Assembly: GCA_944327245.1 (NCBI GenBank)
Contig: CALVHD010000017.1
Coordinates: forward strand, 1 to 39,570
Source: Candidatus Gastranaerophilales bacterium
Lineage (GTDB): Bacteria; Cyanobacteriota; Vampirovibrionia; Gastranaerophilales; Gastranaerophilaceae
Reading direction: 5' to 3'
Length of the DNA stretch: 39,570 bases
Shown here: positions 15,752 through 39,215 of the stretch, in pieces
Numbering within the stretch: position 1 is the first letter of the stretch
Layout: each line of letters starts with the position of its first letter
Notes under the pieces: model-generated
Told to the model about the DNA's origin: nothing
The model's database searches: none
Seen by the model: only the letters and a program-made list of their open reading frames with translations
Position numbers and translations under genes: made by a program

Positions 15752-17009
15752 GGAAGATTTAAAATTAAAAGCAAATGAAATAGTTGAAAGTGCGCAAAAT
15801 TCAATTAAAGATATTTTTGAATATATTGATGAAATAACCGAATACAATCAAAAAAAAGTTTTAGACGCTTTTTATAATAATAAAATTGGCGAAGAACATT
15901 TTTATACTGTAACCGGCTATGGCCATGATGATATGGGCAGAGAAGCACTAGATAAAGTTTTTGCCGACACTTTTAAAACAGAAGCTGCAATTGTTAGACC
16001 TCATTTTGTTTCAGGATCTCACACCATAGCTTGCGCTTTATTTGGTGTTTTAAGATATGGCGATAGGTTGGTTTCTATTGCGGGCGAACCTTATGACACC
16101 ATGCAGCAAATTATAGGTTCAAGGCAAAATTGCGATGATTTTGATACAAGCTTAATGGGTCATGGGGTTAAATATTCTGAAATTCCTCTAAAAGACGGGC
16201 TGGATGTTGATTATGAAAATGTTGAAAAATATCTTTTACCTGATACAAAAATGGTTTTAATTCAGCGCTCAAGAGGATATTCTCTAAGAAAACCTTTATC
16301 TATAGCTGATATTGAAAAAATAGTTAAAATTGTTAAAGCTAAAAATCCTGAAATATGCTGTTTTGTTGATAATTGTTATGGGGAATTTATTGAAAAACAA
16401 GAACCAACTGAAGTTGGCGCTGATTTAATTGCAGGAAGTTTAATTAAAAACCCCGGCGGCGGTATTGTTGAAGCAGGAGGCTACATTGCAGGAAAGAAAA
16501 AATATGTTGATATGGCAGCAAGAAGATTAACAGCCCCCGGTATTGGTGCTGAGGGTGGCGCTATGCATAATCAAACAAGAATTATGCTTCAGGGATTTTT
16601 TATGGCGCCATCTATAACATCAAATGCTCATAAAGGCGCAATTTTAGCGGCAAAAGTCTTTGAGGATATGGGATTTACTACCTTTCCATCATCAAGAACA
16701 AAAAGAACAGATATTATTCAAACTATTCAATTTAATAATGAAAAAGAGCAACAGGCATTTTGTGCTATGGTGCAGAGATATTCCCCTGTTGAGAGTTATT
16801 TAACACCAATTCCAGATACGGTTCCGGGGTATGATTGTAATCTTTTAATGGCGGGCGGAAGTTTTATTGAGGGTTCTACTATTGAACTTTCTGCAGATGG
16901 CCCCACTAGAGAGCCTTGGGCAATATATATGCAGGGTGGATTAAGTTATTTTCATGTAAAAATTGCTCTAAAAGGCATAGTGGAGAACCTTTTGAAGCTC
17001 GAGCATTAG
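15750..17009 (+). CDS. Methionine gamma-lyase family PLP enzyme (aluminium-resistance-like)
   Basis: A 419-residue fold-type I PLP enzyme. Notable stretches are YTVTGYGHDDMGREALDKVFA, RPHFVSGSHTIACALFGVLR, CCFVDNCYGEF (the aspartate that contacts the PLP nitrogen) and AGSLIKNPGGGI, with the likely Schiff-base lysine. These are typical of the family annotated as methionine gamma-lyase or aluminium-resistance protein, distinct from the classical MetC/MGL family. It probably acts on sulfur amino acids; the exact reaction is not proven. The last residues (ENLLKLEH) and the stop are encoded by the first base pairs of a repeat unit that starts at 16984. AAAGGA lies upstream of the ATG within a hairpin loop. 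Confidence 0.88.
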   Translation: MEDLKLKANEIVESAQNSIKDIFEYIDEITEYNQKKVLDAFYNNKIGEEHFYTVTGYGHDDMGREALDKVFADTFKTEAAIVRPHFVSGSHTIACALFGVLRYGDRLVSIAGEPYDTMQQIIGSRQNCDDFDTSLMGHGVKYSEIPLKDGLDVDYENVEKYLLPDTKMVLIQRSRGYSLRKPLSIADIEKIVKIVKAKNPEICCFVDNCYGEFIEKQEPTEVGADLIAGSLIKNPGGGIVEAGGYIAGKKKYVDMAARRLTAPGIGAEGGAMHNQTRIMLQGFFMAPSITSNAHKGAILAAKVFEDMGFTTFPSSRTKRTDIIQTIQFNNEKEQQAFCAMVQRYSPVESYLTPIPDTVPGYDCNLLMAGGSFIEGSTIELSADGPTREPWAIYMQGGLSYFHVKIALKGIVENLLKLEH

Positions 17010-17465
17010 TCTGATAGACTTAGCGAGAGCGAAAAAGGCATAAGGTGTGTACCGAGAACGTCGAAGCGTTGAGCTTTGACGTTTGAGAAACCGTACCCAA
17101 GTACCGTAAGAATTTGCGCTTGCGCAAATTCCACAGGAACAGAACCTTTTGAAGCTCGAGCATTAGTCTGATAGACTTAGCGAGAGCGAAAAAGGCATAA
17201 GGTGTGTGCCGATCCTTTGAAATTCGAGTCTTACTCCGACGGAGTTAGACGAGAATGAAAAGGCAAAAGGATGTGAGGGCGTGATGTCAAAACGTTGAGT
17301 TTTGACAGACAGCCCAATACTGGACTAAAGTGACGTGGGACGAAGTCCCACAGGAACATACGCAGGCAGGAGCGTTGAGCTTTGACGTTTGAGAAACCGT
17401 ACCCAAGTACCGTAAGAATTTGCGCTTGCGCAAATTCCACAGGAACAGAACCTTTTGAAGCTCGA
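16984..17465. repeat. Structured repeat array, family 1
   Basis: A mosaic of modules. Module R1 is at 16984-17050 and 17141-17207 (67 bases, offset 157), with a truncated third copy at 17447-17465. Module R2 with the start of R1 is at 17066-17159 and 17372-17465 (94 bases, offset 306). Between 17211 and 17356 lies a diverged R1-R2 pair. Each module folds into hairpins, for example AGTCT-GAT-AGACT in R1, ACTCC-GAC-GGAGT in the diverged copy, AATTTGCGC-TTGCGCAAATT in R2 and GTGGGAC-GAA-GTCCCAC in its relative. It overlaps the end of the lyase gene. No gene is supported here; a minus-strand frame at 17231-17491 is made of these repeats. Confidence 0.85.
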
Positions 17466-17491
17466 ATTATAGCGCGGTTGAATTTAAGCAA

Positions 17492-18735: not shown

Positions 18736-18830
18736 AATGAAAACTCCTTTCTAAAAATATCATTACGCTTTTATTTTATCACGTTTTTCAAAAAAGAGAA
18801 AAAAAATTCTTTAAAATCCTTTTATGGAGC

Positions 18831-18939
18831 GGATTTTGACTAGCACGTAACGAAGTGAGTGCGCCTGTTTGAGTAATTTTATGGAGTGTCTGGGCGAAGC
18901 CCAAAAGCGGAATACTAAAATTACGAGTTGTCAAAATCC
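18831..18939 (+). repeat. Structured repeat, family 2, copy a
   Basis: Ends GGATTTTGAC and GTCAAAATCC pair; inside them GTAATTTTA pairs with TAAAATTAC, and TGGGC-GAA-GCCCA forms the tip. A variable side hairpin (GCACGTAACGAAGTGAGTGC) lies in the 5' half. The unit is 109 bases. Confidence 0.85.
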
Positions 18940-18947
18940 AAGACAGC

Positions 18948-19070
18948 GGATTTTGACTAGGGCGGAACAGAGCTTTAGCTCGTTGTGAGCCCGTATGTTT
19001 GAGTAATTTTATGGAGTGTCTGGGCGAAGCCCAAAAAACGGAATACTAAAATTACGAGTTGTCAAAATCC
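18948..19070 (+). repeat. Structured repeat, family 2, copy b
   Basis: Same outer stem as copy a. The side hairpin is instead GGGC...GAGCTTTAGCTC...GCCC, making the unit 123 bases, as in the island copies. It is joined to copy a by AAGACAGC. Confidence 0.85.
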
Positions 19071-19078
19071 AAGACAGC

Positions 19079-19174
19079 GGATTTTGACTAGCACGTAACG
19101 AAGTGAGTGCGCCTGTTTGAGTAATTTTATGGAGTGTCTGGGCGAAGCCCAAAAAGCGAAGTATTAAAATTAAT
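19079..19174 (+). repeat. Structured repeat, family 2, copy c, 5' part
   Basis: Matches copy a up to the inner TAAAATTA arm, then breaks off. The missing 3' part reappears at 19366-19400, so the unit is interrupted. Confidence 0.75.
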
Positions 19175-19192
19175 TAATGTTTTTACATAATT

Positions 19193-19249
19193 GTTCACTT
19201 TTCTTCTTTTTTCTCTCAAACGGCGAAATGAAAAAGAAGAAAAGTGAAC
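19193..19249. repeat. Perfect 19-base inverted repeat inside an interrupted unit
   Basis: GTTCACTTTTCTTCTTTTT at 19193-19211 is the exact complement of 19231-19249, with a 19-base loop. It sits in the segment that splits repeat copy c. Confidence 0.85.
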
Positions 19250-19365
19250 CGAAAAGAAGAAAACTTCCGCCTGCCTCATAATTATCGGGCTTCGCCCAAG
19301 TTATATATGTTTTGCTAAAGCAAAACTTTTTAGGGGTAATAGGCTAATTTATATTAGTAAATTAG

Positions 19366-19400
19366 AAGCGGAATTCTAAAATTACGAGTTGTCAAAATCC
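19366..19400 (+). repeat. Structured repeat, family 2, 3' part
   Basis: Carries GCGGAATTCTAAAATTACG and the closing GTCAAAATCC arm. It probably completes the copy begun at 19079. Confidence 0.75.
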
Positions 19401-19420
19401 AAGACGGCGGATTTTGCAAG

Positions 19421-28372: not shown

Positions 28373-28446
28373 GCCCTGGTAGCTCAGCTGGATAGAGCAA
28401 CTGCCTTCTAAGCAGTAGGTCATGCGTTCGAATCGCATCCAGGGTA
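28373..28446 (+). tRNA. tRNA-Arg (anticodon TCT)
   Basis: A full cloverleaf of 74 bases. The acceptor GCCCTGG pairs with CCAGGGT (first pair G-U). The D arm is GCTC/GAGC. The anticodon stem ACTGC/GCAGT holds loop CTTCTAA with anticodon TCT, reading AGA. The T arm is ATGCG/CGCAT with loop TTCGAAT. CCA is not encoded. It is followed by a strong terminator. Fragments of its 3' half recur at 28783-28806 and 39037-39210, marking an integration hot spot. Confidence 0.97.
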
Positions 28447-28450
28447 GATT

Positions 28451-28483
28451 AAAAAAAGGATAAGTTTTTCTTATCCTTTTTTT
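28451..28483 (+). terminator. Terminator of tRNA-Arg
   Basis: A 14-base perfect stem (AAAAAAAGGATAAG with its complement) around TTTTT, ending in seven T. An identical copy without a gene in front lies at 28808-28840. Confidence 0.9.
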
Positions 28484-28520
28484 AATACTTTATAGTGCGA
28501 TGAGAACGCGGCGTTCGAGC

Positions 28521-28643
28521 GAATTTTGACTAGGGCGGAACAGAGCTTTAGCTCGTTGTGAGCCCGTATGCTCGAGTAATTTTTTGGAGCGTTTGGGCAA
28601 AGCCCAAAAAGCGGAATACTAAAATTACGAGTTGTCAAAATTC
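28521..28643 (+). repeat. Structured repeat, family 2, island copy A
   Basis: 123 bases with outer arms GAATTTTGAC and GTCAAAATTC. Against the 18831 copies the second base pair is A-T instead of G-C, on both arms, so pairing is kept. It is flanked by GCGTTCGA and GCATCCAGGGTAGAT, both from the tRNA T arm and 3' end. Confidence 0.85.
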
Positions 28644-28671
28644 AAGACGGAGCATCCAGGGTAGATAACTT

Positions 28672-28697
28672 AAAAACTCCCATCCAAGGGAGTTTTT
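28672..28697 (+). terminator. Terminator-like hairpin in the repeat region
   Basis: AAAAACTCCC and GGGAGTTTTT pair perfectly around ATCCAA. It is repeated at 39216-39241 with one loop change. No gene precedes either copy. Confidence 0.7.
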
Positions 28698-28782
28698 GCG
28701 TTATATAACCTGAAGGATTCTCAGCATCCCCCTACAATGCTTTAGTCTTTTTATTCAGGTTATGTGTGGGCTAGGGGTCCCT

Positions 28783-29022
28783 GTTCGAATCGCATCCAGG
28801 GTAGATTAAAAAAAGGATAAGTTTTTCTTATCCTTTTTTTAATACTTTATAGTGCGATGAGAACGCGGCGTTCGAGCGAATTTTGACTAGGGCGGAACAG
28901 AGCTTTAGCTCGTTGTGAGCCCGTATGCTCGAGTAATTTTTTGGAGCGTTTGGGCAAAGCCCAAAAAGCGGAATACTAAAATTACGAGTTGTCAAAATTC
29001 AAGACGGAGCATCCAGGGTAGA
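28783..29022 (+). repeat. 240-base direct repeat, copy 2
   Basis: Identical to 28426-28665. Its left junction is chimeric: GGGGTCCCTG precedes GTTCGAATCGCATCC, so the 5' part of the tRNA is missing and foreign sequence abuts the T loop. It includes family-2 unit B at 28878-29000. Confidence 0.92.
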
Positions 29023-29058
29023 CTTTATTTTTAAGAGTTTTTTCAATTTGATAATTTA

Positions 29059-29448
29059 CTAAATTATATTATTTTCATTCATAAAATTATTAGCCAAAAT
29101 AAAACCGTCAACAATAGGCAAAGGTTTGTTATTAGATGGCAATAATTTCAATTCATTATTTGCAATTTTTGTTACACAAATTTGCAAGCTTGCCTCTAAA
29201 ACATCAATTTCATCTGTAAGTTTATAATTGCGCTTCTTTGAATATTCAAAAATCATATCAACCAGTCTTGCTAAATATGGCGTTAATGTAGCGTAGCTTA
29301 TTGGTGCATGTTTTAGATATTGTTTTGCAAAATTTATAAATGTGCCTTGTTTATCAAACATAACACCTAAAAACCCAACTCCTGCAGTTAGTAGTTTCAT
29401 TAAAAGAAAAACCATAAAAGCAACAATCAAAAAAAGCAATTTTAACAT
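29059..29448 (-). CDS. Small membrane-anchored protein of unknown function
   Basis: A 129-residue protein with a strongly hydrophobic N-terminus (LLFLIVAFMVFLLMKLL), then GVGFLGVMF and a mostly helical soluble part (LARLVDMIFEYSKK, DEIDVLEASLQICVTKI). I do not recognise it. It lies 18 bases downstream of the pseudo-peptidase gene on the same strand and probably forms an operon with it. The 3' end lies close to repeat copy 2. Confidence 0.65.
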   Translation of the reverse strand: MLKLLFLIVAFMVFLLMKLLTAGVGFLGVMFDKQGTFINFAKQYLKHAPISYATLTPYLARLVDMIFEYSKKRNYKLTDEIDVLEASLQICVTKIANNELKLLPSNNKPLPIVDGFILANNFMNENNII

Positions 29449-29466
29449 TAAATCATCCTATTCTTT

Positions 29467-30129
29467 TTATCTATTTTTCTTTTCTAATTTCTTCATCTCT
29501 TTAGTTGTATTAAACAAGAAATTTTGATAATAAACATTATTTTCATAAGCATTGTTTTTTAAATATTGAGGATAATTATTTGCAATGTATTCATAAATAT
29601 TTACCATCCTCTTTGTTGCTAATGGATAATAATGACACCATTCATAGCGAGTTTGAGCAAGTGTTTTACTATAAATTGCAATTAACGCTAATGGGTTATA
29701 ACCTGCTTTTGTCATATAATCCACCGCTTTTAAATCAGCTTTATTTTCTTTTGGTCTTGGAGAAATAATATAAGCAAAATGAGAGAAAAAGCCTCTAAAT
29801 AAACCTTTGTATGAATTTTCACCCATGGCTATTGTATGGCTTAAAAGTCCTGCTAATTCATCTTCATTATCAACTAAATCTAAAGCATCATCATACACCC
29901 ATAAAACTCTGCCTGTATAATCTAAACCAATATTTTCCGGCTTATAATCCAGTGTTGCTCTAGGGTTTTTAATAAAAAAAGTATATTTAAATACCATTCT
30001 TTTTTGAATATTGTTAGCTTTTAAAATCTTAAATCCGATTGGCGCAATATCCTCTGAAGTAGGCTTTTTTGCTTCCGCTATTGATACAAAAAACATTAAT
30101 GCAACAAACAAAATCAAAACTTTTTTCAT
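29467..30129 (-). CDS. Exported M48-like protein with lost catalytic residues
   Basis: A 220-residue protein with signal peptide MKKVLILFVALMFFVSIAEA. It resembles M48 metallopeptidases. NEDELAGLLSHTIAMGENS aligns with the motif that normally reads HExxH, and KENKADLKAVDYMTKAGYNP aligns with the ExxxD helix that gives the third ligand. Here HExxH has become HTIAM, losing the catalytic glutamate and the second histidine, so proteolysis is unlikely. A binding or inhibitory role is possible. It pairs with the small membrane protein downstream; the XRE gene is divergent. Confidence 0.7.
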   Translation of the reverse strand: MKKVLILFVALMFFVSIAEAKKPTSEDIAPIGFKILKANNIQKRMVFKYTFFIKNPRATLDYKPENIGLDYTGRVLWVYDDALDLVDNEDELAGLLSHTIAMGENSYKGLFRGFFSHFAYIISPRPKENKADLKAVDYMTKAGYNPLALIAIYSKTLAQTRYEWCHYYPLATKRMVNIYEYIANNYPQYLKNNAYENNVYYQNFLFNTTKEMKKLEKKNR

Positions 30130-30252
30130 AAAATCACCTTTCTAAAACACAAACAGTATTAGCTCTTAAAGTATTGCTATTTATATAAATAACCCATATA
30201 AACGCACGCTCAGTTTGTTCAATTAATCTCATATTACCACGAAAATTAAAAT

Positions 30253-30468
30253 ATGAGCAAGAGAGATTTACAAAAATTTGGCAAGCGATTAAAATCATTA
30301 AGGATTGACAAAAACTTAACTCAGCTTGAATTGGCTGAAATTCTTGATATGTCGCCTAATTTTATCGGTATGATTGAACGAGGCGAAAGAAATACAACTG
30401 TTGAAAATATTTTTAAAATAGCACGTGCCTTAAATGTTAAACCCTCTAATCTGTTTGAAGAACTTTAA
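30253..30468 (+). CDS. Small XRE-family transcriptional regulator
   Basis: A 71-residue Cro/C1-type protein that is essentially a single helix-turn-helix domain: FGKRLKSLRIDKNLTQLELA, then EILDMSPNFIGMIERGERNT and IFKIARALNVKPSNLFEEL. Such short regulators often control mobile elements and restriction or toxin genes. It lies about 0.75 kb upstream of the four-gene operon. No clear ribosome site precedes it, so it may be leaderless. Its 3' end overlaps a convergent gene by 23 bases. Confidence 0.85.
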   Translation: MSKRDLQKFGKRLKSLRIDKNLTQLELAEILDMSPNFIGMIERGERNTTVENIFKIARALNVKPSNLFEEL

Positions 30469-30670
30469 TTGCTTCTTCTAACTTCTTATTCAATGTTTTA
30501 AAAAGTATGTAATAATCATCGCTACATTTATTTAACTGTAAATTATCATCAATAATACCGGAATCACTAGCGAGGGCGCCGAGCTTAATGAATACTTGTA
30601 AATCGTATAAAATCATTCTTGCGTCCGAAAGTTTATTTTCTAATCGATTTAATGCGTTATTATCGCACAT
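30446..30670 (-). CDS. Small helical protein of unknown function, convergent with XRE
   Basis: A 74-residue acidic helical protein (NRLENKLSDARMILYDLQVF, then YYILFKTLNKKLEEAIKVLQ). I do not recognise it. It is supported by a strong AAAGGAG nine bases before the ATG. It overlaps the end of the XRE gene tail-to-tail. It might be a regulator or antitoxin partner, but nothing proves this. Confidence 0.6.
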   Translation of the reverse strand: MCDNNALNRLENKLSDARMILYDLQVFIKLGALASDSGIIDDNLQLNKCSDDYYILFKTLNKKLEEAIKVLQTD

Positions 30671-30830
30671 AAAAATTAACTCCTTTGTATTTGTATACGT
30701 GTATCTAGCTGTTTATGGTGTTTATAACAGGCGTCTCATTCTAACAATGAGCAATCCTTTCATAATTGCATATTAACGCAAGAGTAAATTTCTGTGCACC
30801 ATGTTAATTTATGCGAGTAATAAACCTTAG

Positions 30831-30860
30831 AACTTGATCCTGAATCAAGTTTTCTATTTT
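30831..30860 (+). terminator. Terminator-like hairpin
   Basis: AACTTGAT (30831-30838) and ATCAAGTT (30844-30851) pair perfectly around CCTGA, followed by TTCTATTTTATTT. No plus-strand gene directly precedes it. Confidence 0.4.
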
Positions 30861-30983
30861 ATTTAGCAAGTTTGCAATTTGGCGCAAAACGAAATAATAC
30901 TCTAGACTATCCTACAGCTGTAACTCTTCATCTATCACACAAGCATCAAAAGCTAACGCACTAAGCCTAGTTAAACGCTTGGT

Positions 30984-31049
30984 CTAGAGTAATATGTGAC
31001 CCACTTCATTCAATTTATCTTCAATGCTGCTATTTGTATTTTCTTCCAT
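30984..31049 (-). CDS. Possible 21-residue peptide
   Basis: Starts MEENTNSSIEDKLNEVG and stops after HILL. Its only support is a very good ribosome site (AAAGGAGG, 5 bases before the ATG). It may be the remnant of a longer gene or a regulatory peptide. Confidence 0.3.
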   Translation of the reverse strand: MEENTNSSIEDKLNEVGHILL

Positions 31050-31215
31050 TTCTTCCTCCTTTTAATTCATCATATCGGGAAGGGTTTTGAAATAAGCAAC
31101 CTTGTTGCAAAAGTTAGGAATTGTCAGATTTCTTAATTAAATTAATGTTTAATATTTTTATGGTAGAATTCCTATAGGATGTTCGGAATTGCAGATATGC
31201 AAGAAAGTATGGTAG

Positions 31216-32364
31216 ATGAAAGAGATTTTATCAATAATCGAAAGAGAAACAAAGGGAAAATGTTTTCGTTCTCAAAAATATTCTATTGATACTGAAAAAG
31301 TTTCAACAATTGATTATACAGAAGAAAAAGAAATCGTTGTTGATAAAAGCGGAGAAACTGAAAAGCAACAAGGTTATATTGATTTAAGAAAATTAGTTAA
31401 GGATATATCAAAAGATAAACCTCTGTTTAAATTTTTCTTAGATGGTTCAAGACGAGTTTATAAAATAGATGACATTGCATATGATCAGAAAGTCTATCCT
31501 ATCATAACAGGACAAATTGGTGTTGGTTGCTGTAGACGAGATGAACGGAAAATCAAAAAATTAAAAGTTGTTAATGAAAATGTAATTGTGTTACCAATAG
31601 ATGCAAATCCCGATAATACTCGACACGAACAATATTTTGAAAATATTAAAACTAAAATAAATTTATATACAAGTTCTTTTAATAAAATAAACATAAATAT
31701 TGATAAAATTCTATTTTATACGCCTAAAAAAGATCAAGACTCTAAAAATCTTGCAGTTGCAAAAGTACAAGATCGGATGATTGAACTTGAAAAAGAATTA
31801 GTATCAAATTTGGCTAAAGAAAATTATTTAAGCAAAGATGCATATATGGTTAAAGATGGATCATTAGAATACAAAGAGTATGGTTCTAAAACGGTAAATA
31901 AATACTCGTACGCATCAATAAGAGATAATTATTCAGCAGTTGTTGGCATTTCAAAATCATTTAATCCTTCTTTGGCAAGGAAAAAGGATAAAACAAGCAT
32001 GGCTAAAGATATTGCGGAATTACCAATTTACCACCGAACACCTGCTTTTATGTATGAATCAGAACATACAGGAAATGAAAAGTTTGCTATATGGTATGTG
32101 CGTATAAGATCTGCGGATCATTGTCAAGGTCCTTTTGACGGTGTTGTAAAGGTTGAGAAAATTCTAATGAAAGATACAGAACAACAGAAAGGATTAAATA
32201 CTAACGAGATCAATTTGATTAGTGCCAATATAATTAATGAAAGAAACCCAGTATGTTATGGTAATGATAATAGATGGGCAAATCACATATATCCAATATA
32301 TTTGACTGAAACTTTTGTAAAAAGTCAATATATAAGTAATACTTTTTTCTTGAATATGTTCTAA
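31216..32364 (+). CDS. NurA-like nuclease, first gene of the candidate defence operon
   Basis: A 382-residue protein matching the NurA nuclease fold. FKFFLDGSRRVYKID (D76) is the first NurA motif, where the aspartate binds metal. VKDGSLEYK is the second (usual form DGsL). Near the C-terminus SADHCQGPFDGVVKVE supplies further acidic and histidine residues. In archaea and some bacteria NurA is a 5'-3' DNA nuclease that joins a HerA hexamer to process DNA ends. Here a HerA-like gene follows after 9 bases. Ribosome site is weak (AGAAAG); a frame from 31179 overlaps the start in another frame. Called NurA-like because similarity outside these motifs is low. Confidence 0.75.
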   Translation: MKEILSIIERETKGKCFRSQKYSIDTEKVSTIDYTEEKEIVVDKSGETEKQQGYIDLRKLVKDISKDKPLFKFFLDGSRRVYKIDDIAYDQKVYPIITGQIGVGCCRRDERKIKKLKVVNENVIVLPIDANPDNTRHEQYFENIKTKINLYTSSFNKININIDKILFYTPKKDQDSKNLAVAKVQDRMIELEKELVSNLAKENYLSKDAYMVKDGSLEYKEYGSKTVNKYSYASIRDNYSAVVGISKSFNPSLARKKDKTSMAKDIAELPIYHRTPAFMYESEHTGNEKFAIWYVRIRSADHCQGPFDGVVKVEKILMKDTEQQKGLNTNEINLISANIINERNPVCYGNDNRWANHIYPIYLTETFVKSQYISNTFFLNMF

Positions 32365-32373
32365 GGAGTAAAT

Positions 32374-34038
32374 ATGAGTAAGTTAATTGGAAAAATTGCA
32401 GCAACAGAAAAAAATCCTACAACTATAGATGAATTTCATTTTTGGACAGATACAAATTTAATATTAAATCCTTTTGATGTCGTGAAAGTTTCTCATATTA
32501 ATGGAAGTTATACTTATGGTGTTATTCAGGAAATTTTTCACATAACGGATTCTACAGGATATTTAAATAATTATATTTCTAGCGACTTTGGGGATGCAAA
32601 CATCCAACCAAATACATTAAGAATTGGCATGAATTATGTAAAAGCTAAATTTTGTTATAATGATAAGTCAATTTATATTCCAGTACAAAACGATGCTCAA
32701 GTATTTTTAGCTACTCAGGATGAAATAGAAGCTGCCTTAGGTTTAAAAGATGTTAAAAATCCAATTATTTGTGGATATTTAGAAATGTACAGTAATACAG
32801 ATAATATTGATGATAAAGTTAAATTGCCAGTCAAATTAAATTCAGAATTCTTAATTGGACCAGAAGGTGCACATTTAAATATTTCTGGTATTTCTGGTCT
32901 GGCAGCTAAAACTTCTTATGCAATGTTTTTATTGAAATCAATTCAAGATAGAGCAATACAAGAAGATGAAAATATTGCATTTGTATTTTTGAATGTAAAA
33001 GGCAAGGATCTTTTATCTATTGATGAACAGCCAACTCAATATGAAAATCAAAAGTATAAGAATATACAAAAAGAGTATAAGGATTTAGGATTAGATACAG
33101 AGCCTTTTAAAAATGTAAAATATTTCTATCCGTATGATCGAAATAATGAAGGTACGTATGGTAAAGAAATCTTAGAAGACCAACTCCGTTGTAATAAAGC
33201 AGAAAAATATAAATTTATTTATGAACAAGATAAGGAAAATTTAGATTTATTATTTTCAAATATTGATGATCCAAATCAAACAATGGATTCAATAATAAAT
33301 TGTATAATGTCAGGGCAAGATGGTTTTAACAATTGTCAAAGTTGGGAAGATTTCTTAGAGCATGTTCAATCAAAATGCGAAGCTGGTTCTAACAATAGAG
33401 ATAAAGAAATAACTGTTTCTAGTTGGCGAAAATTCAAAAGAATAGTAACAAAATATTTGAAAAATGGAACAAGTGCTAATCTTTTTGCGAATAGACTTGT
33501 TCATGAAGATTCTGAAATTCGTTTAGAAGATGCTATTAAACGGATAAAAAAACACGAAATTTATGTTGTTGACATTGCCAAGCAAGAAGAAGATATGCAA
33601 GCATTTGTATTTGGGAATGTCATGAGGGCAATATACAACTTAAAACTTGGAGATTATGAAAAAGAGAATCCCCCTAGGATTGTTATTTTTATTGATGAAT
33701 TAAATAAATATGCATCAAAAGATGTACCTAAAACATCTCCGATTTTGCGCCAAATTATTGATATAGCAGAAAGAGGACGTTCTTTAGGAATTGTACTATT
33801 TGCAGCAGAACAATTTAGAAGTGCAATTCACGATAGAGTTTCTGGAAACTGTTCTACTCATGCTTATGGCAGAACGAATTCGATAGAAGTTTCAAAGAAA
33901 GATTATTCATTTGTTCCTAAAGTATATCAGAATATGATGACTAGATTGAAACAGGGAGAATATGTCATTCAAAATCCAATGTTTAATTCATTATTGAGTG
34001 TAAAATTTCCTGAACCAATATATAGGCAACATAAATAA
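32374..34038 (+). CDS. HerA-like ATPase with unusual P-loop
   Basis: A 554-residue FtsK-HerA superfamily ATPase. Residues 1-110 form a HAS-barrel-like beta domain. The P-loop region (172-180) reads GISGLAAKT, lacking the glycine before lysine found in the usual GxxxxGK[ST]. Walker B is RIVIFIDELNKYA. The C-terminal part has AERGRSLGIVLFAAEQFR and YGRTNSIEVS, like HerA sensor and arginine-finger segments. HerA forms hexameric rings that pump DNA through and activate NurA. AAGGAG lies just upstream. An insert of about 200 residues (190-400) between the motifs is larger than in archaeal HerA. Confidence 0.82.
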   Translation: MSKLIGKIAATEKNPTTIDEFHFWTDTNLILNPFDVVKVSHINGSYTYGVIQEIFHITDSTGYLNNYISSDFGDANIQPNTLRIGMNYVKAKFCYNDKSIYIPVQNDAQVFLATQDEIEAALGLKDVKNPIICGYLEMYSNTDNIDDKVKLPVKLNSEFLIGPEGAHLNISGISGLAAKTSYAMFLLKSIQDRAIQEDENIAFVFLNVKGKDLLSIDEQPTQYENQKYKNIQKEYKDLGLDTEPFKNVKYFYPYDRNNEGTYGKEILEDQLRCNKAEKYKFIYEQDKENLDLLFSNIDDPNQTMDSIINCIMSGQDGFNNCQSWEDFLEHVQSKCEAGSNNRDKEITVSSWRKFKRIVTKYLKNGTSANLFANRLVHEDSEIRLEDAIKRIKKHEIYVVDIAKQEEDMQAFVFGNVMRAIYNLKLGDYEKENPPRIVIFIDELNKYASKDVPKTSPILRQIIDIAERGRSLGIVLFAAEQFRSAIHDRVSGNCSTHAYGRTNSIEVSKKDYSFVPKVYQNMMTRLKQGEYVIQNPMFNSLLSVKFPEPIYRQHK

Positions 34039-34048
34039 GAGGTTTAAT

Positions 34049-35602
34049 ATGCAAACAGAATTATACAAAATTGGTAAAAATATATTAGAGAATTTAACTT
34101 CCGGGATGTATACTGATTCGAAATTTATATATAGAGAGTACGTTCAAAATGCTGCCGATGCAATTGATGAAGCTATAGCAAACAATATATTAACTAAAGA
34201 AGATGCTAAAATTTTAATTAACATTGATGCACAAAATAGAGCTATACATATAGAAGATAACGCAACGGGTATTGATTATAGAAATGCATTAAGATTATTG
34301 GGTAATGTAGCTGATTCAGTAAAAGATAAAAATATCAATAAAGGTTTTAGGGGAATTGGTCGGTTGGGCGGATTGGCTTATTGCAAAAAATTAATATTTG
34401 AAACAAGTTCATTAGGAGAAGATAGAAAGACCATCATGACTTGGGATGCAGAATTATTGCATAAAATACTTAATGATCCTAATGATAAATCTGATGCAGC
34501 GACTGTTATTAATAAAATAGTGCATATAAATACAATAGAAGAAAAAGAGAATGAGCATTATTTTAGGGTTAGTTTATACGATATAAAACCAAGTAATAGT
34601 GATCTACTAGATAAAGGTTTGATAAGAGAATATCTTAGTCAAGTAGCTCCAGTTGATTTCGATTCAACAATTTTTCTTTTAAGCCGAAAAATTAAAGAAG
34701 AAATGAAAGCTAATTCCAAAAACTTAGATACTTACAAAATATATATTAACAACGATCAACTTTATAAAATTTATCAAACAAGTTTAATTGATACAAATGG
34801 ATCTAAATATGATGAAATAGGTGATATTGATTATCACGAATTTCGAAATTCTAAAGGAGAAATTTTAGCTTGGAGTTGGATAGGTATTTCTAAATTTGAG
34901 AAATGTATTCCTGAAAAAAATAATCCTCAAAGATGTATTCGTTTGAAAAAAGCAAATATTCAATTAGGTGATGCCGAAACATTAAATAATCTTCATAAAG
35001 AACCAAGAGGTAATGGATATTTTGTTGGAGAAGTTCATGCAATTCATACTGATTTGACACCTAATGCAAGAAGAGATTATTTTAATGAAACAGGAACATT
35101 AAAAGAGTTAGAAATAAAGTTAAAGGAATACTTTAATTCCTTATACAATTTATATCATTTAGCGAATGATCAAAAGAATGCATTAAAAAAACAAAATGAA
35201 TATGTACAAAAAAAACAAGAATATGAAGAAAAACAAAAAGCAGGTACATTTATTAATTCTGAAGATCAGAAAAAGTCATTAAAACAGCTAGAAGAACTAA
35301 AACAAAAAGCAGACAAAGCAAAAAAAGATTCTGACAGAATTAGTAAAAAAGCTGAAGATAATGGAACACTGAAAAGAGTAGTAACTTTTATAAAAAAAGA
35401 TTATGGAAATGATATTGAAGAAATTTCAGATATTAAAGAAACATTACAAAATAATAAAAAAGCTTATCGTTCAAATAAATTAAATAAGTTGAATAGAGAA
35501 GAAAGAAAGTTAATTAGTAAAATATACGAAATATTGGAAAAAGTTCTTGATCCAGAAACAAGAGAATGTGTAATTAATAAGATTGAAGAAGAGTTTAGTT
35601 AG
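34049..35602 (+). CDS. Hsp90/GHKL-type ATPase with coiled-coil tail
   Basis: A 517-residue protein. The N-terminal GHKL ATP-binding domain has the N box IYREYVQNAADAIDEAI (E30, N34), the G1 box IEDNATGI (D70, G74) and the glycine loop KGFRGIGRLGGLAYC (99-112), all intact, so ATP binding is likely. A middle region follows, with AWSWIGISKFEKCI and TPNARRDYFN resembling Hsp90 or MORC-like middle domains. From about 375 to 430 there is a long charged coiled coil. GHKL ATPases of this type occur in several defence loci and act as ATP-driven clamps. It sits 10 bases after the HerA gene, with AGAGG as ribosome site. Confidence 0.8.
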   Translation: MQTELYKIGKNILENLTSGMYTDSKFIYREYVQNAADAIDEAIANNILTKEDAKILINIDAQNRAIHIEDNATGIDYRNALRLLGNVADSVKDKNINKGFRGIGRLGGLAYCKKLIFETSSLGEDRKTIMTWDAELLHKILNDPNDKSDAATVINKIVHINTIEEKENEHYFRVSLYDIKPSNSDLLDKGLIREYLSQVAPVDFDSTIFLLSRKIKEEMKANSKNLDTYKIYINNDQLYKIYQTSLIDTNGSKYDEIGDIDYHEFRNSKGEILAWSWIGISKFEKCIPEKNNPQRCIRLKKANIQLGDAETLNNLHKEPRGNGYFVGEVHAIHTDLTPNARRDYFNETGTLKELEIKLKEYFNSLYNLYHLANDQKNALKKQNEYVQKKQEYEEKQKAGTFINSEDQKKSLKQLEELKQKADKAKKDSDRISKKAEDNGTLKRVVTFIKKDYGNDIEEISDIKETLQNNKKAYRSNKLNKLNREERKLISKIYEILEKVLDPETRECVINKIEEEFS

Positions 35603-35604
35603 AG

Positions 35605-37497
35605 ATGAAAAAAAGAAAAATATTATTATTAGAACCCAATTATAAAAATAAATATCCGCCAATAGGATTGATGAAAATAGCCACATATCATAGACTGTTA
35701 GGTGATGATGTTCATTTTTACAAAGGCAATTTAAATGATTTTGTTGTACAAGAAATTACCGAAGATGCTATTAAAAAGTTTACAGACATAGATTCCTCTG
35801 TCACCTGGCGACATTATTATTTCGAAATAAAAGATTATGTTAAATATGGACATGATGATAACCTAAAATTTATTATCTATAAAAGTAAAAAGGATTCTAA
35901 ACTTATAGAGTTGTCATGCCATTATTTCAGAAAATATTACACCCAAAAAGAATACTTTAAAAATCCACGTTGGGACAGGGTTTTGGTTACTACTTTATTT
36001 ACATTTTATTGGAAACAAACAATAGAAACCGTAGAATTTGCAAAGAAAATTGTCAAAGATATAAATAATGTTAAAGCAGGTGGAGTATTGGCTTCAGTCG
36101 TTTCAAAGGAGTTTGAGGCCGCTACTGGTGTTAAACCAGATGTTGGCTTATTAAATAAGCCGGGTATTTATGACGATAATGATTACATAATTGATGAACT
36201 GCCATTAGATTATTCTATATTAGAAGAAATTGATTATAAATATCCAGAAACAGGATCTTATTATGGATATATGTCAAGAGGGTGCGTAAATAAGTGTAAG
36301 TTTTGCGCGGTCCCTATAATTGAACCTAAGTATGAAAATATGATTACGATAGGTGATAAAATCAAAGCTACACGAGAAAAGTTTGGAGAACAAAAAAATC
36401 TTTTATTATTAGATAATAATGTTTTAGCCTCTGAAAAATTTGAGGAAATTATTCAAGAAATTAAAGATGCAGGATTTTATAAAGGTGCACAATTTGAAAG
36501 ATCTAATTATTTAGATATATCAATCAATCGTATAAAAGAGGGTTATAATAAAAAAGCATATATTCGTAAAGCAACACGTTTATTTATAGAATTATTGGAT
36601 AGATTACATGGTGAAGAAAAACAAAAAATGTTTGATTTACTAAAAGAGCATTATTTACTTAATGAATATACTGCAACAGAAAAAGATGTTTTAGCTGTAT
36701 ATAAAGAATGCAAAGATTTATATGAACAAAAACGTCTAAAATCAAAGATGAATAGATATGTTGATTTCAATCAAGGTTTAGATGCTAGATTAATGACCGA
36801 TCAAAAAATGAAACGTTTAAGTGAGATTGCTATTCATCCTTTAAGAATTGCGTTTGATAATTGGAAACTAAGGGAAACATATGAAAAAGCAATAAGATTA
36901 GCCGCAAAACATAATATAAAACATTTATCAAATTATATATTGTACAATTTTGAAGATAAACCAGAAGAATTATACCATAGACTTCGAATTAATGTTGATT
37001 TATCAGATGAATTAGGAGTTAGAATATATTCATTTCCTATGAAATATCATCCCATTATGGATCCTAAATATTTCCAAAATAGAGAATATATTGGCACTTA
37101 TTGGAATCGTAAATATATACGAGCAATTCAGGCTGTATTAAATTCTACAAAAGGGAAAATAGGAACTGGTAAAAGTTTTTTTAATAAAGCTTTTGGTGCA
37201 AATGAACAAGAGTTCAGAAAAATTTTATATATGCCTGAAACTTTCATTATTTATAGAATGAAATTTGAAGAATCTGGTTGGACTGATAGATGGTGGAACG
37301 CCTATTGCAGCTTAACAGATTCGCAAAAAGAAATCGCTAATAAGGTAATACATTCTAATAAATTTGAAAATATTCAAGTATATAGAAAATATCCTCAAGT
37401 ATACAAAGTATTGCAATATTACACTATATCAAAAGATTTTAATCCAGAAATCTTAAACCGAACTTCTATAGAAGAGAAGGAACTACTAAAAATCTAG
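35605..37497 (+). CDS. Radical SAM protein with B12-binding-like N-terminus
   Basis: A 630-residue protein. The first 40 residues (KILLLEPNYKNKYPPIGLMK) look like the start of a B12-binding domain as in many radical SAM methyltransferases, but no DxHxxG cobalamin motif is evident. The iron-sulfur motif is GCVNKCKFC (C227, C231, C234), the canonical CxxxCxxC that binds 4Fe-4S and S-adenosylmethionine. Later parts (DFNQGLDARLMTDQKMKRL, then SNYILYNFEDKPEELYHRL) fit the barrel of this class. The substrate is unknown. It closes the operon, 2 bases after the GHKL gene stop. Radical SAM enzymes in DNA-associated loci could modify nucleobases or proteins; that is inference. Confidence 0.85.
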   Translation: MKKRKILLLEPNYKNKYPPIGLMKIATYHRLLGDDVHFYKGNLNDFVVQEITEDAIKKFTDIDSSVTWRHYYFEIKDYVKYGHDDNLKFIIYKSKKDSKLIELSCHYFRKYYTQKEYFKNPRWDRVLVTTLFTFYWKQTIETVEFAKKIVKDINNVKAGGVLASVVSKEFEAATGVKPDVGLLNKPGIYDDNDYIIDELPLDYSILEEIDYKYPETGSYYGYMSRGCVNKCKFCAVPIIEPKYENMITIGDKIKATREKFGEQKNLLLLDNNVLASEKFEEIIQEIKDAGFYKGAQFERSNYLDISINRIKEGYNKKAYIRKATRLFIELLDRLHGEEKQKMFDLLKEHYLLNEYTATEKDVLAVYKECKDLYEQKRLKSKMNRYVDFNQGLDARLMTDQKMKRLSEIAIHPLRIAFDNWKLRETYEKAIRLAAKHNIKHLSNYILYNFEDKPEELYHRLRINVDLSDELGVRIYSFPMKYHPIMDPKYFQNREYIGTYWNRKYIRAIQAVLNSTKGKIGTGKSFFNKAFGANEQEFRKILYMPETFIIYRMKFEESGWTDRWWNAYCSLTDSQKEIANKVIHSNKFENIQVYRKYPQVYKVLQYYTISKDFNPEILNRTSIEEKELLKI

Positions 37498-38636
37498 GTA
37501 CCTTCTTTAAGTACATCCAAATACTCTTTATATGCAAAAGTTCGATTTCTTGATTGGGTTGAAGTTTGTTCAAGGACACCGATACTAGTCAGGTCTTTGA
37601 CTATGCTTGACATTGTATTAAATGCTATATCAAGCTCTTTGGCTGTTTTTTGAATCTCAATAATAGGGTTTGACTCTAAATATTCAAATACTCTCATTGC
37701 ATTTTTAGCTCTGCGTCCCAAGCACTCAATTTTTAGGCAATAGTTATCATGCAAAGAAGTTAATTTATCAATAGTTTCAACTGCATCTTTTGCTGATTCA
37801 TAAACAGCTTCTAAGAAAAATTTAATCCATTGTTCATAGTTACCTTTCAGACGAACTTCATTCATACGGTCATAGTATTCAATCCTATTCTTTTTCAAGA
37901 AGTAAGAAATATATAATGCCGGTGTGCTTAAAACTTTCTTTTCCATTAAAAATAAAGTAATTAAAAGCCGTCCGATTCTGCCGTTACCATCCAAAAACGG
38001 GTGGATAGTTTCAAATTGATAATGAATTAATCCTGCTCTAATTAAAACATCAAGTTCATCATCACCATTAATGTATTTTTCTAAATCAGACATTGCCTGT
38101 ATCATATCTTCAACAGACGGTGGAATATAGCGGGCATTTTGCAAATTGCAACCTGCTGCACCAATCCAATTTTGAGAGTGCCTAAATTCACCGGGACTTT
38201 TATTTTGCCCTCTAACACCTGATAACAAAACTTCGTGTGTTTCTTTAATTAAACGGTTGCACAAAGGTAGTTCTTTTAATCTATTAATTGCATAATCTGT
38301 TGCTTTTATGTAGTTTACAACATCACCAACAGGCCTGTTAGTGTTTTCTTCTAAACACGGGTCTAAAACATCTTCTAAAGTTGCCTGAGTTCCTTCAATT
38401 TGAGAGGACATAAGAGCTTCTTTTCTTACATACATAGAAATAAACAAATGAATATTGGGAATTCTGCTTGAGATTCCTTCAAGTAATGCAAGTTGCTTAT
38501 TTGCTTTTACTAATAAATCTACAATATCCTTATTAAGTTCTATTGGCGGATTAGGCGGCAATACTGTAGGCATAAATGATTTATATGCCATATCACCTGA
38601 TAAATTGTTTTTGTATATTCCTGCTCTATTATTCAT
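37494..38636 (-). CDS. Fic-family adenylyltransferase with C-terminal winged helix
   Basis: A 380-residue Fic protein. It contains HPFLDGNGRIGRLL (H212 to R223), a full active motif for transferring AMP to target hydroxyls. Upstream, MSSQIEGTQATLEDV carries the class II inhibitory helix (S77, E81, G82) that blocks ATP until released. The C-terminal 70 residues form a winged helix (RVFEYLESNPIIEIQKTAKE, then SRNRTFAYKEYLDVL). It is convergent with the radical SAM gene, overlapping by 4 bases. Fic proteins of this SoFic type are found in phage defence and toxin contexts. A palindromic promoter region precedes it, so autoregulation is plausible. Confidence 0.9.
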   Translation of the reverse strand: MNNRAGIYKNNLSGDMAYKSFMPTVLPPNPPIELNKDIVDLLVKANKQLALLEGISSRIPNIHLFISMYVRKEALMSSQIEGTQATLEDVLDPCLEENTNRPVGDVVNYIKATDYAINRLKELPLCNRLIKETHEVLLSGVRGQNKSPGEFRHSQNWIGAAGCNLQNARYIPPSVEDMIQAMSDLEKYINGDDELDVLIRAGLIHYQFETIHPFLDGNGRIGRLLITLFLMEKKVLSTPALYISYFLKKNRIEYYDRMNEVRLKGNYEQWIKFFLEAVYESAKDAVETIDKLTSLHDNYCLKIECLGRRAKNAMRVFEYLESNPIIEIQKTAKELDIAFNTMSSIVKDLTSIGVLEQTSTQSRNRTFAYKEYLDVLKEGT

Positions 38637-38647
38637 GGCAACTCCGC

Positions 38648-38694
38648 AATTGAAATAACAAGTTTATTATAACACCTTTATTTCAATTTAGCAA
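38648..38694 (-). promoter_or_regulatory. Fic promoter with inverted-repeat operator
   Basis: AATTGAAATAA (38648-38658) and TTATTTCAATT (38678-38688) are perfect inverted repeats. Between them lies minus-strand TATAAT (38666-38671), with TTGCTA (38689-38694) at 17 bases as -35. A dimeric repressor on the palindrome would cover the -10 box. Confidence 0.55.
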
Positions 38695-39036
38695 TTGGAA
38701 TTGAAACAAGGCTAAATAATTTGTTACAGTATTTCAATCTTGTATCTAGTACAACGGAATTTGTCAAAAATACAGAATTTTTCTGTGTCTCAGATTAAAG
38801 GAGGCTAAATAGGGGATTTACTCCTCCCCCGTCCGTATGTAAAATCATAATTCTTTAATTTTCAATCTTTCCTTAATCGCATTAAAGTTGCATAATAGTT
38901 ACAAAAATTCTGATAAATCAAGATTAAATCTAATAAAAATTAAGAATAAAAAATTGTTTCAAATTCATGCACCGTAACAAACAGAGATAAATTCTGATAA
39001 ACCCTGAAAAATAGCGAAAATACTGCGTCATACAAC

Positions 39037-39062
39037 TTCTAAGTAGTAGGTCATGCGTTCGA
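39037..39062 (+). pseudogene. tRNA-Arg 3' fragment, probable attachment-site remnant
   Basis: TTCTAAGTAGTAGGTCATGC and the bases to 39062 match tRNA-Arg 28406-28431 at 25 of 26 positions. The rest of the tRNA 3' end follows after the inserted unit C at 39196-39210. The 5' half is absent, so it cannot be functional. It lies in the same orientation as the intact gene. Confidence 0.85.
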
Positions 39063-39064
39063 GC

Positions 39065-39187
39065 GAATTTTGACTAGGGCGGAACAGAACTTTAGCTCGT
39101 TGTGAGCCCGTATGCTTGAGTAATTTTTTGGAGCGTTTGGGCAAAGCCCAAAAAGCGGAATACTAAAATTACGAGTTGTCAAAATTC
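39065..39187 (+). repeat. Structured repeat, family 2, island copy C inside a tRNA fragment
   Basis: Same 123-base unit as copy A. Left flank is ...GTCATGCGTTCGA and right flank is GCATCCAGGGTAGAT: the two halves of the tRNA T arm. The intact tRNA has only ATC between them. Confidence 0.88.
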
Positions 39188-39215
39188 AAGACGGAGCATC
39201 CAGGGTAGATAACTT

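Follow-up and report, generated by a model that had tools for sequence, protein, structure and literature searches.

The window analysed here is the whole of contig C17 (39,570 bp) from the 1.70-Mb, 45-contig genome of an uncultured gut bacterium, Candidatus Gastranaerophilales (G000; other G numbers denote compared genomes). It contains an array anchored on an intact tRNA-Arg(TCT) gene and built of repeated pieces of that tRNA and of a 130-nt structured repeat, hereafter the unit, which is present as copies A, B and C. Modules were defined by cutting the tRNA-Arg loci at the repeated 3' end of the tRNA, and the features of the array are as follows.

28373..28446, + strand: intact tRNA-Arg(TCT), the array anchor, with its T-loop TTCGAAT at 28427-28433 (ARAGORN; Rfam tRNA, 69 bits)
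28432..28651, + strand: first copy of block M1, comprising the tRNA 3' end from the T-loop, a terminator (28449-28486), the hairpin H1 and a unit
28499..28518, + strand: H1, GATGAGAACGC-G-GCGTTCGA, an inverted repeat of the 5' half of the T-arm directly before the unit
28519..28648, + strand: unit copy A (covariance-model score 146 bits)
28652..28788, + strand: block M2, comprising a second tRNA 3' end, a terminator and module X, which ends in GGGGTCCCTG followed by TTCGA (intact T-loop)
28789..29008, + strand: second copy of block M1, with 240-nt identity to the first
28876..29005, + strand: unit copy B (146 bits)
29009..39195, + strand: gene-bearing block of 10.2 kb, with a tRNA 3' end at its start and a unit at its end
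39036..39062, + strand: displaced tRNA-Arg fragment that spans anticodon loop to T-loop and matches the intact gene at 26 of 27 positions
39063..39192, + strand: unit copy C, inside the split T-loop (145 bits)
39196..39210, + strand: resumed tRNA-Arg 3' end, GCATCCAGGGTAGAT; the M2 terminator and module X come next

The borders of M1 rest on successive GCATCCAGGGTA repeats spaced 217 nt apart, and positions 28426-28665 and 28783-29022 form an identical 240-nt repeat with a spacing of 357 nt.

The displaced fragment at 39036-39062 reads CTTCTAAGTAGTAGGTCATGCGTTCGA, and the tRNA continues with GCATCCAGGGTAGA from 39196. The earlier note on this DNA had described a tRNA-Arg copy whose T-loop is split by about 133 bases, and the intervening stretch (39063-39195) is indeed exactly 133 nt long, consisting of the unit and a trailing GGA. 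Chance can be excluded as the origin of this split, because in none of 2000 shuffles is the exact suffix match to the tRNA as long as the 18 nt observed and because the same type of split occurs at four other tRNAs. The borders of the unit can be defined, as had been claimed, but the right end is ...CAAGAC and not ...GACGGA: in four relatives (G002, G003, G005 and G020) the tRNA sequence goes on with AATCGC behind the unit, and the ends were therefore set at (A)GCGG...AAGAC, or in full (A)GCG(A/G)ATTTTGAC...GTCAAAAT(T/C)CAAGAC. We read the GGA behind copy C as a probable decayed remnant of the tRNA's ATC. The further claim that copy A is bracketed by the same flanks is only partly right; GCGTTCGA lies upstream of both copies A and B, but what precedes it is the T-arm hairpin, GAACGC-G-GCGTTC, rather than tRNA.

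An alignment of 23 copies yields a three-stem fold with strong covariation. GGATTTTGAC and GTCAAAATCC form its closing stem; the other two parts are a side hairpin and a long arm, the terminal hairpin of which is exchangeable. Among 70 distinct unit sequences, pairing is found in 96.6% of cells, and 494 cells are changed on both sides, against 150 in shuffles, which do not retain the relatedness of the sequences, and at most 97 in slid controls, which do; since the alignment was fitted to a covariance model, these counts lean towards structure. Part of the primary sequence is conserved besides the pairing. Covariance-model searches detected the unit in 17 of 27 genomes of the genus and in 60 of 146 genomes of the order (18 of 40 genera), with order-wide matches scoring lower than those in the genus; the flanks of these order-wide matches were inspected for 27 loci. 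A collection scan with the 3' motif of the unit matched mostly Candidatus Gastranaerophilales metagenome-assembled genomes. In Rfam, only the intact tRNA-Arg matches and the unit has no match above gathering score; a sub-threshold match to the rimP leader was rejected as reflecting a terminator-like hairpin. Phage and plasmid collections gave no match to the unit. Viral carriage was likewise discarded as a candidate: one unit pattern occurs in no IMG/VR contig, and a second, 17-nt pattern occurs in nine, in none of which the covariance model finds a unit. G020 also harbors about a dozen copies of a weaker and shorter (~110 nt) sister family.

Units lie 3' of, and on the same strand as, intact tRNA-Arg(TCT), Leu(GAG), Glu(TTC), Asn(GTT) and Asp(GTC) genes, the first unit of a locus usually 60-105 nt from the tRNA; in other genera they are found downstream of tRNA-Arg and tRNA-Asp, and in several genera the site that they split is in the T-arm or on the acceptor side of a displaced tRNA 3' end. 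The common layout is an intact tRNA, a terminator, a T-arm hairpin, the unit and a second copy of the locus's own tRNA 3' end. The hairpin consists of the reverse complement of the 5' half of the T-arm followed by that half; this design recurs at Asp, Asn and Arg in other species and is weak or absent at Leu. The upstream flank is the locus's own tRNA as far as the unit; behind the unit, except in decayed copies, the tRNA sequence carries on with 0-1 extra base, in keeping with the earlier observation that there is no clear target duplication. By our count, duplicated tRNA ends hold 26 of the 49 strong unit copies in the genus, all in sense orientation, where the expected share near tRNAs is well below 1% (assuming 40 tRNAs and 300 nt each). 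The filled and empty sites that the earlier note had called for thus exist at five tRNAs in many species, together with an orthologous empty site in another species, and the split is not confined to a single chimeric copy.

That orthologous pair comprises a filled tRNA-Leu locus in G012 and its empty counterpart in G008, whose flanks are 88% identical upstream (tRNA included) and 92% downstream. G012 differs by one extra piece of 218 nt, a clean insertion bordered by a 22-nt direct repeat, CAAGTCCCCCCGTCGACATTAA, that runs from the T-loop and reaches slightly beyond the end of the tRNA. The piece is 95.4% identical over 218 nt to a block at C31 of G000, the tRNA-Leu genes themselves being 87% identical; G010 carries a version of the block that lacks the unit (97.8% identity over 92 nt, ending two bases into the unit) behind a different tRNA-Leu, with anticodon CAG by inspection. 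The gene-less block at tRNA genes, ~217 bp in length, is thus composed of a tRNA 3' end, a terminator, a T-arm hairpin and the unit. It displays the hallmark of tRNA-integrative elements, with the tRNA 3' end as a direct repeat at both ends and an intact tRNA kept, and, judged from these alignments, it has evidently moved between tRNA genes. The proposal that the repeat moves as a unit therefore stands in so far as the repeat has moved, but the moving piece at tRNAs is the ~217-bp block and not the 133 nt alone.

Modules are combined in different orders at tRNA-Arg. The order is tRNA-M1-M2-M1-gene block-M2 in G000, where the 10.2-kb gene block ends in a unit, and tRNA-M1-M2-M1-genes in G010; G009 has tRNA-M2-M1-M3-M1 followed by a 4.0-kb gene block with a unit at its end, and G012 has tRNA-M4-M1. 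Two further kinds of structured module, X and Z, share the T-loop region with the unit. The 10.2-kb block of the window carries the following cargo.

29467-30129, − strand: M48-like protein
32374-34038: HerA/mad8-like protein
34049-35602: HATPase
35605-37497: radical SAM protein
37494-38636, − strand: SoFic

The cargo in G009 comprises an EcoRI-type methylase and a GmrSD_N/HNH protein, and in both gene-bearing blocks the genes appear defence-like. As a separate observation, window positions 29059-38636 (HerA-like, HATPase, radical SAM, SoFic) resemble an uncharacterised defence cluster. Downstream of the array in G027 lie SoFic and a protein with an ADP-ribosyltransferase domain.

Module X (CCTGAAGGATTCTCAGCATCCCCC...GGGGTCCCTG), located at 28690-28783 and again from 39235, recurs at tRNA-Arg in several species with an intact T-loop end. 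At a tRNA-Leu locus of the same genome (L150, G000:C35), two tandem Z modules without a unit (2000-2310) each end in the tRNA-Leu T-loop region, and related Z modules are present in L126 and L144. At 1600-1935 of L150, the tRNA-Leu promoter and 5' end are duplicated around a structured repeat, mirroring the 3'-end blocks, with a Xer-type gene directly upstream. Sequence upstream of the tRNA-Leu in L150 is also similar to another hairpin repeat family, which occupies window positions 16980-17475, 3' of a methionine gamma-lyase gene, and includes near-identical copies of 72 and 95 nt.

Units also occur away from tRNAs, at genes whose names were read off translations without family searches. In six species a unit sits at the stop codon of a groEL-like gene; others lie at the ends of rplL-, rplC- and rpsM-like genes and between phage-like genes, where the unit holds a TAATG stop-start. 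In four genera (L159, L178, L182 and L188) a unit separates a MuB-like ATPase gene from the one that follows and provides stop and start codons, and in L180, L181 and L193 the unit supplies, in frame, the N-terminus of a phage-baseplate-like gene and overlaps the stop codon of the gene before it. The window itself holds one further array.

18828..19420, + strand: head-to-tail unit array with the junction AAGAC/AGCGG, before a ylxR-like ORF

An AT-rich hairpin insert at ~19170-19365 breaks one unit of this array, and similar inserts are seen in G009 and G027. In G002, units are inserted in CCCTGAA..TTCAGGG hairpins. A general rule of insertion into hairpin loops was rejected, the flank-pairing permutation test not being significant (p about 0.05), and hairpin-loop insertion is retained solely for T-arms and the G002 hairpins.

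The earlier suggestion of a RAYT-like transposase encoded elsewhere in the genome was not supported: RAYT/Y1_Tnp (PF01797) is absent from G000 and present in one of 27 genus genomes. IS110 Transposase_20 (PF02371) was found in 0 of 27 genomes; reverse transcriptase (PF00078) is absent from G000 and present in 12 of 27 genus genomes, without tracking the presence of the unit. All three were dismissed as movers, none being encoded in G000. The only tyrosine recombinases of G000 are two Xer-type proteins, of which one falls below the curated XerC/XerD cut-offs and above the general recombinase model, and the other (L078) is Xer-sized. An IntI scan (TIGR02249), which covered one of the two, L078 being Xer-sized, placed that protein far under the cut-off. 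No fixed target-site duplication of more than 1 bp, a trait of DDE-type miniature inverted-repeat transposable elements (MITEs), was seen; at tRNA sites it is 0-1 nt.

We consider it probable, at roughly 60%, that these loci consist of non-autonomous blocks that target tRNAs and terminate, on the right, in a palindromic repeat found across the order. The unit itself would be a dispersed, REP/MITE-like mobile repeat of the order, with its three-stem fold maintained, that inserts cleanly (0-1 bp duplication) and builds head-to-tail arrays. At tRNAs it would serve as the structured right end of integrative blocks of ~217 bp, in which a tRNA 3' end and terminator belonging to the block itself form the left side, and the T-arm hairpin and unit the right. 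Insertion in the T-arm would restore an intact tRNA and displace the old 3' end, left split by the unit, and further rounds of insertion, whether cargo genes lie between these ends or not, would give rise to the cassette-like arrays at tRNA-Arg. We infer that a site-specific recombinase acting in trans carried out the insertions and recognises the fold; it may be Xer, a helper integrase, or an enzyme since lost.

Several points weigh against this explanation. The duplicated tRNA-Asp end in G003 takes in the local terminator and looks like a local duplication. The unit is not merely an attachment end, because it also occurs away from tRNAs. No dedicated integrase was found in G000 or in the examined cargo, in searches that did not include serine recombinases or DDE transposases. 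All genomes are draft assemblies, nearly all metagenome-assembled and most of them fragmented, and neither a circular form nor active movement was seen in them. The same terminator, duplicated whole in G003, would fit a unit that is mobile by itself, as a single-strand hairpin or palindromic transposon entering loops and stop codons, with tRNA ends that are duplicated locally and tolerate its insertion. The units that lie at junctions of groEL, ribosomal-protein and phage genes, the head-to-tail arrays, the insertions in the G002 hairpins and the lack of a long target duplication beside the unit itself would all agree with this. However, the 218-bp block came as one piece, a block without the unit exists elsewhere, and the hairpin-target test fell short of significance, leaving such a transposon rather unlikely.

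An integron-like arrangement, in which the T-arm receives cassettes whose attC-like 3' ends are the unit, X and Z, joined by single-strand recombination through a Xer-type recombinase, would accommodate the variable cassette order, the structure kept despite sequence variation and the fact that every gene-bearing block ends in a unit. We regard it as quite unlikely, as no integron integrase was found among the genome's tyrosine recombinases (one of two scanned), and the T-loop GTTCRAR is incompatible with the attC box consensus, GTTRRRY. Unlikely, too, is a tRNA-anchored cassette system in the broader sense, in which T-arms would receive gene-less or defence cassettes that end in attC-like units, with a host Xer-type recombinase supplied in trans. 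The strong pairing constraint, together with the sense orientation of units that follow tRNAs or lie at the ends of groEL-, rplL- and rplC-like genes, might instead mark a functional RNA or processing signal at tRNA and mRNA 3' ends, its spread being secondary; its patchiness among close relatives (17/27), with a unit at only 3 of the retrieved tRNA-Asp loci of the genus, makes this very improbable. That chance or homologous recombination made a single chimeric tRNA fragment is scarcely credible: the right-end copy does have downstream sequence in common with M2 and may be reshuffled, but the same type of split at five tRNAs in many species already contradicts it.

The loci offer naturally occurring filled and empty sites of an integrating element that has no genes. 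They also reveal a family of palindromic repeats associated with the T-arms of tRNAs throughout an order, the same ends enclosing what appears to be defence-like cargo. Should a host recombinase move the blocks, they would represent a route of cassette capture outside integrons.

Like integron cassettes and their attC sites, the blocks carry a structure-conserved, sequence-variable hairpin at their end and form arrays in different orders; they differ in that no IntI was found, no attC boxes were seen, and a tRNA is the receiving site. The unit resembles REP/REPIN elements, which RAYT (Y1 HUH) transposases mobilise, in being a short, dispersed palindromic repeat outside genes, in forming tandem or composite arrays and in lacking a clear target duplication. 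For CGTC REPs, too, a dedicated transposase is apparently missing (PMC3733652). By contrast with REP/REPIN elements, the unit is 130 nt long with three stems, is associated with tRNA T-arms and ends in GCGG..AAGAC in the alignment without a terminal GTAG/CGTC tag, and Y1_Tnp occurs in the genus in only the single genome noted above. Rickettsia palindromic elements are 100-150-nt palindromes at gene ends that are sometimes read in frame; by description the unit is alike in size, gene-end sites and in-frame reading (here L180), but it belongs to tRNA-targeting blocks. Tyrosine-integrase islands and satellites that target tRNAs share the identity block from T-loop to 3' end, the restored tRNA and tandem accretion, and the core of the T-loop phage Ms6, AGGGGTTCGAATCCCCTTAGCTCCAC (PMC1762012), has the same layout as the identity segment of the blocks. 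Unlike such islands, the ~217-bp blocks are without genes or integrase, use the same right end on five tRNA types, and have a structured repeat that splits the core at the right end.
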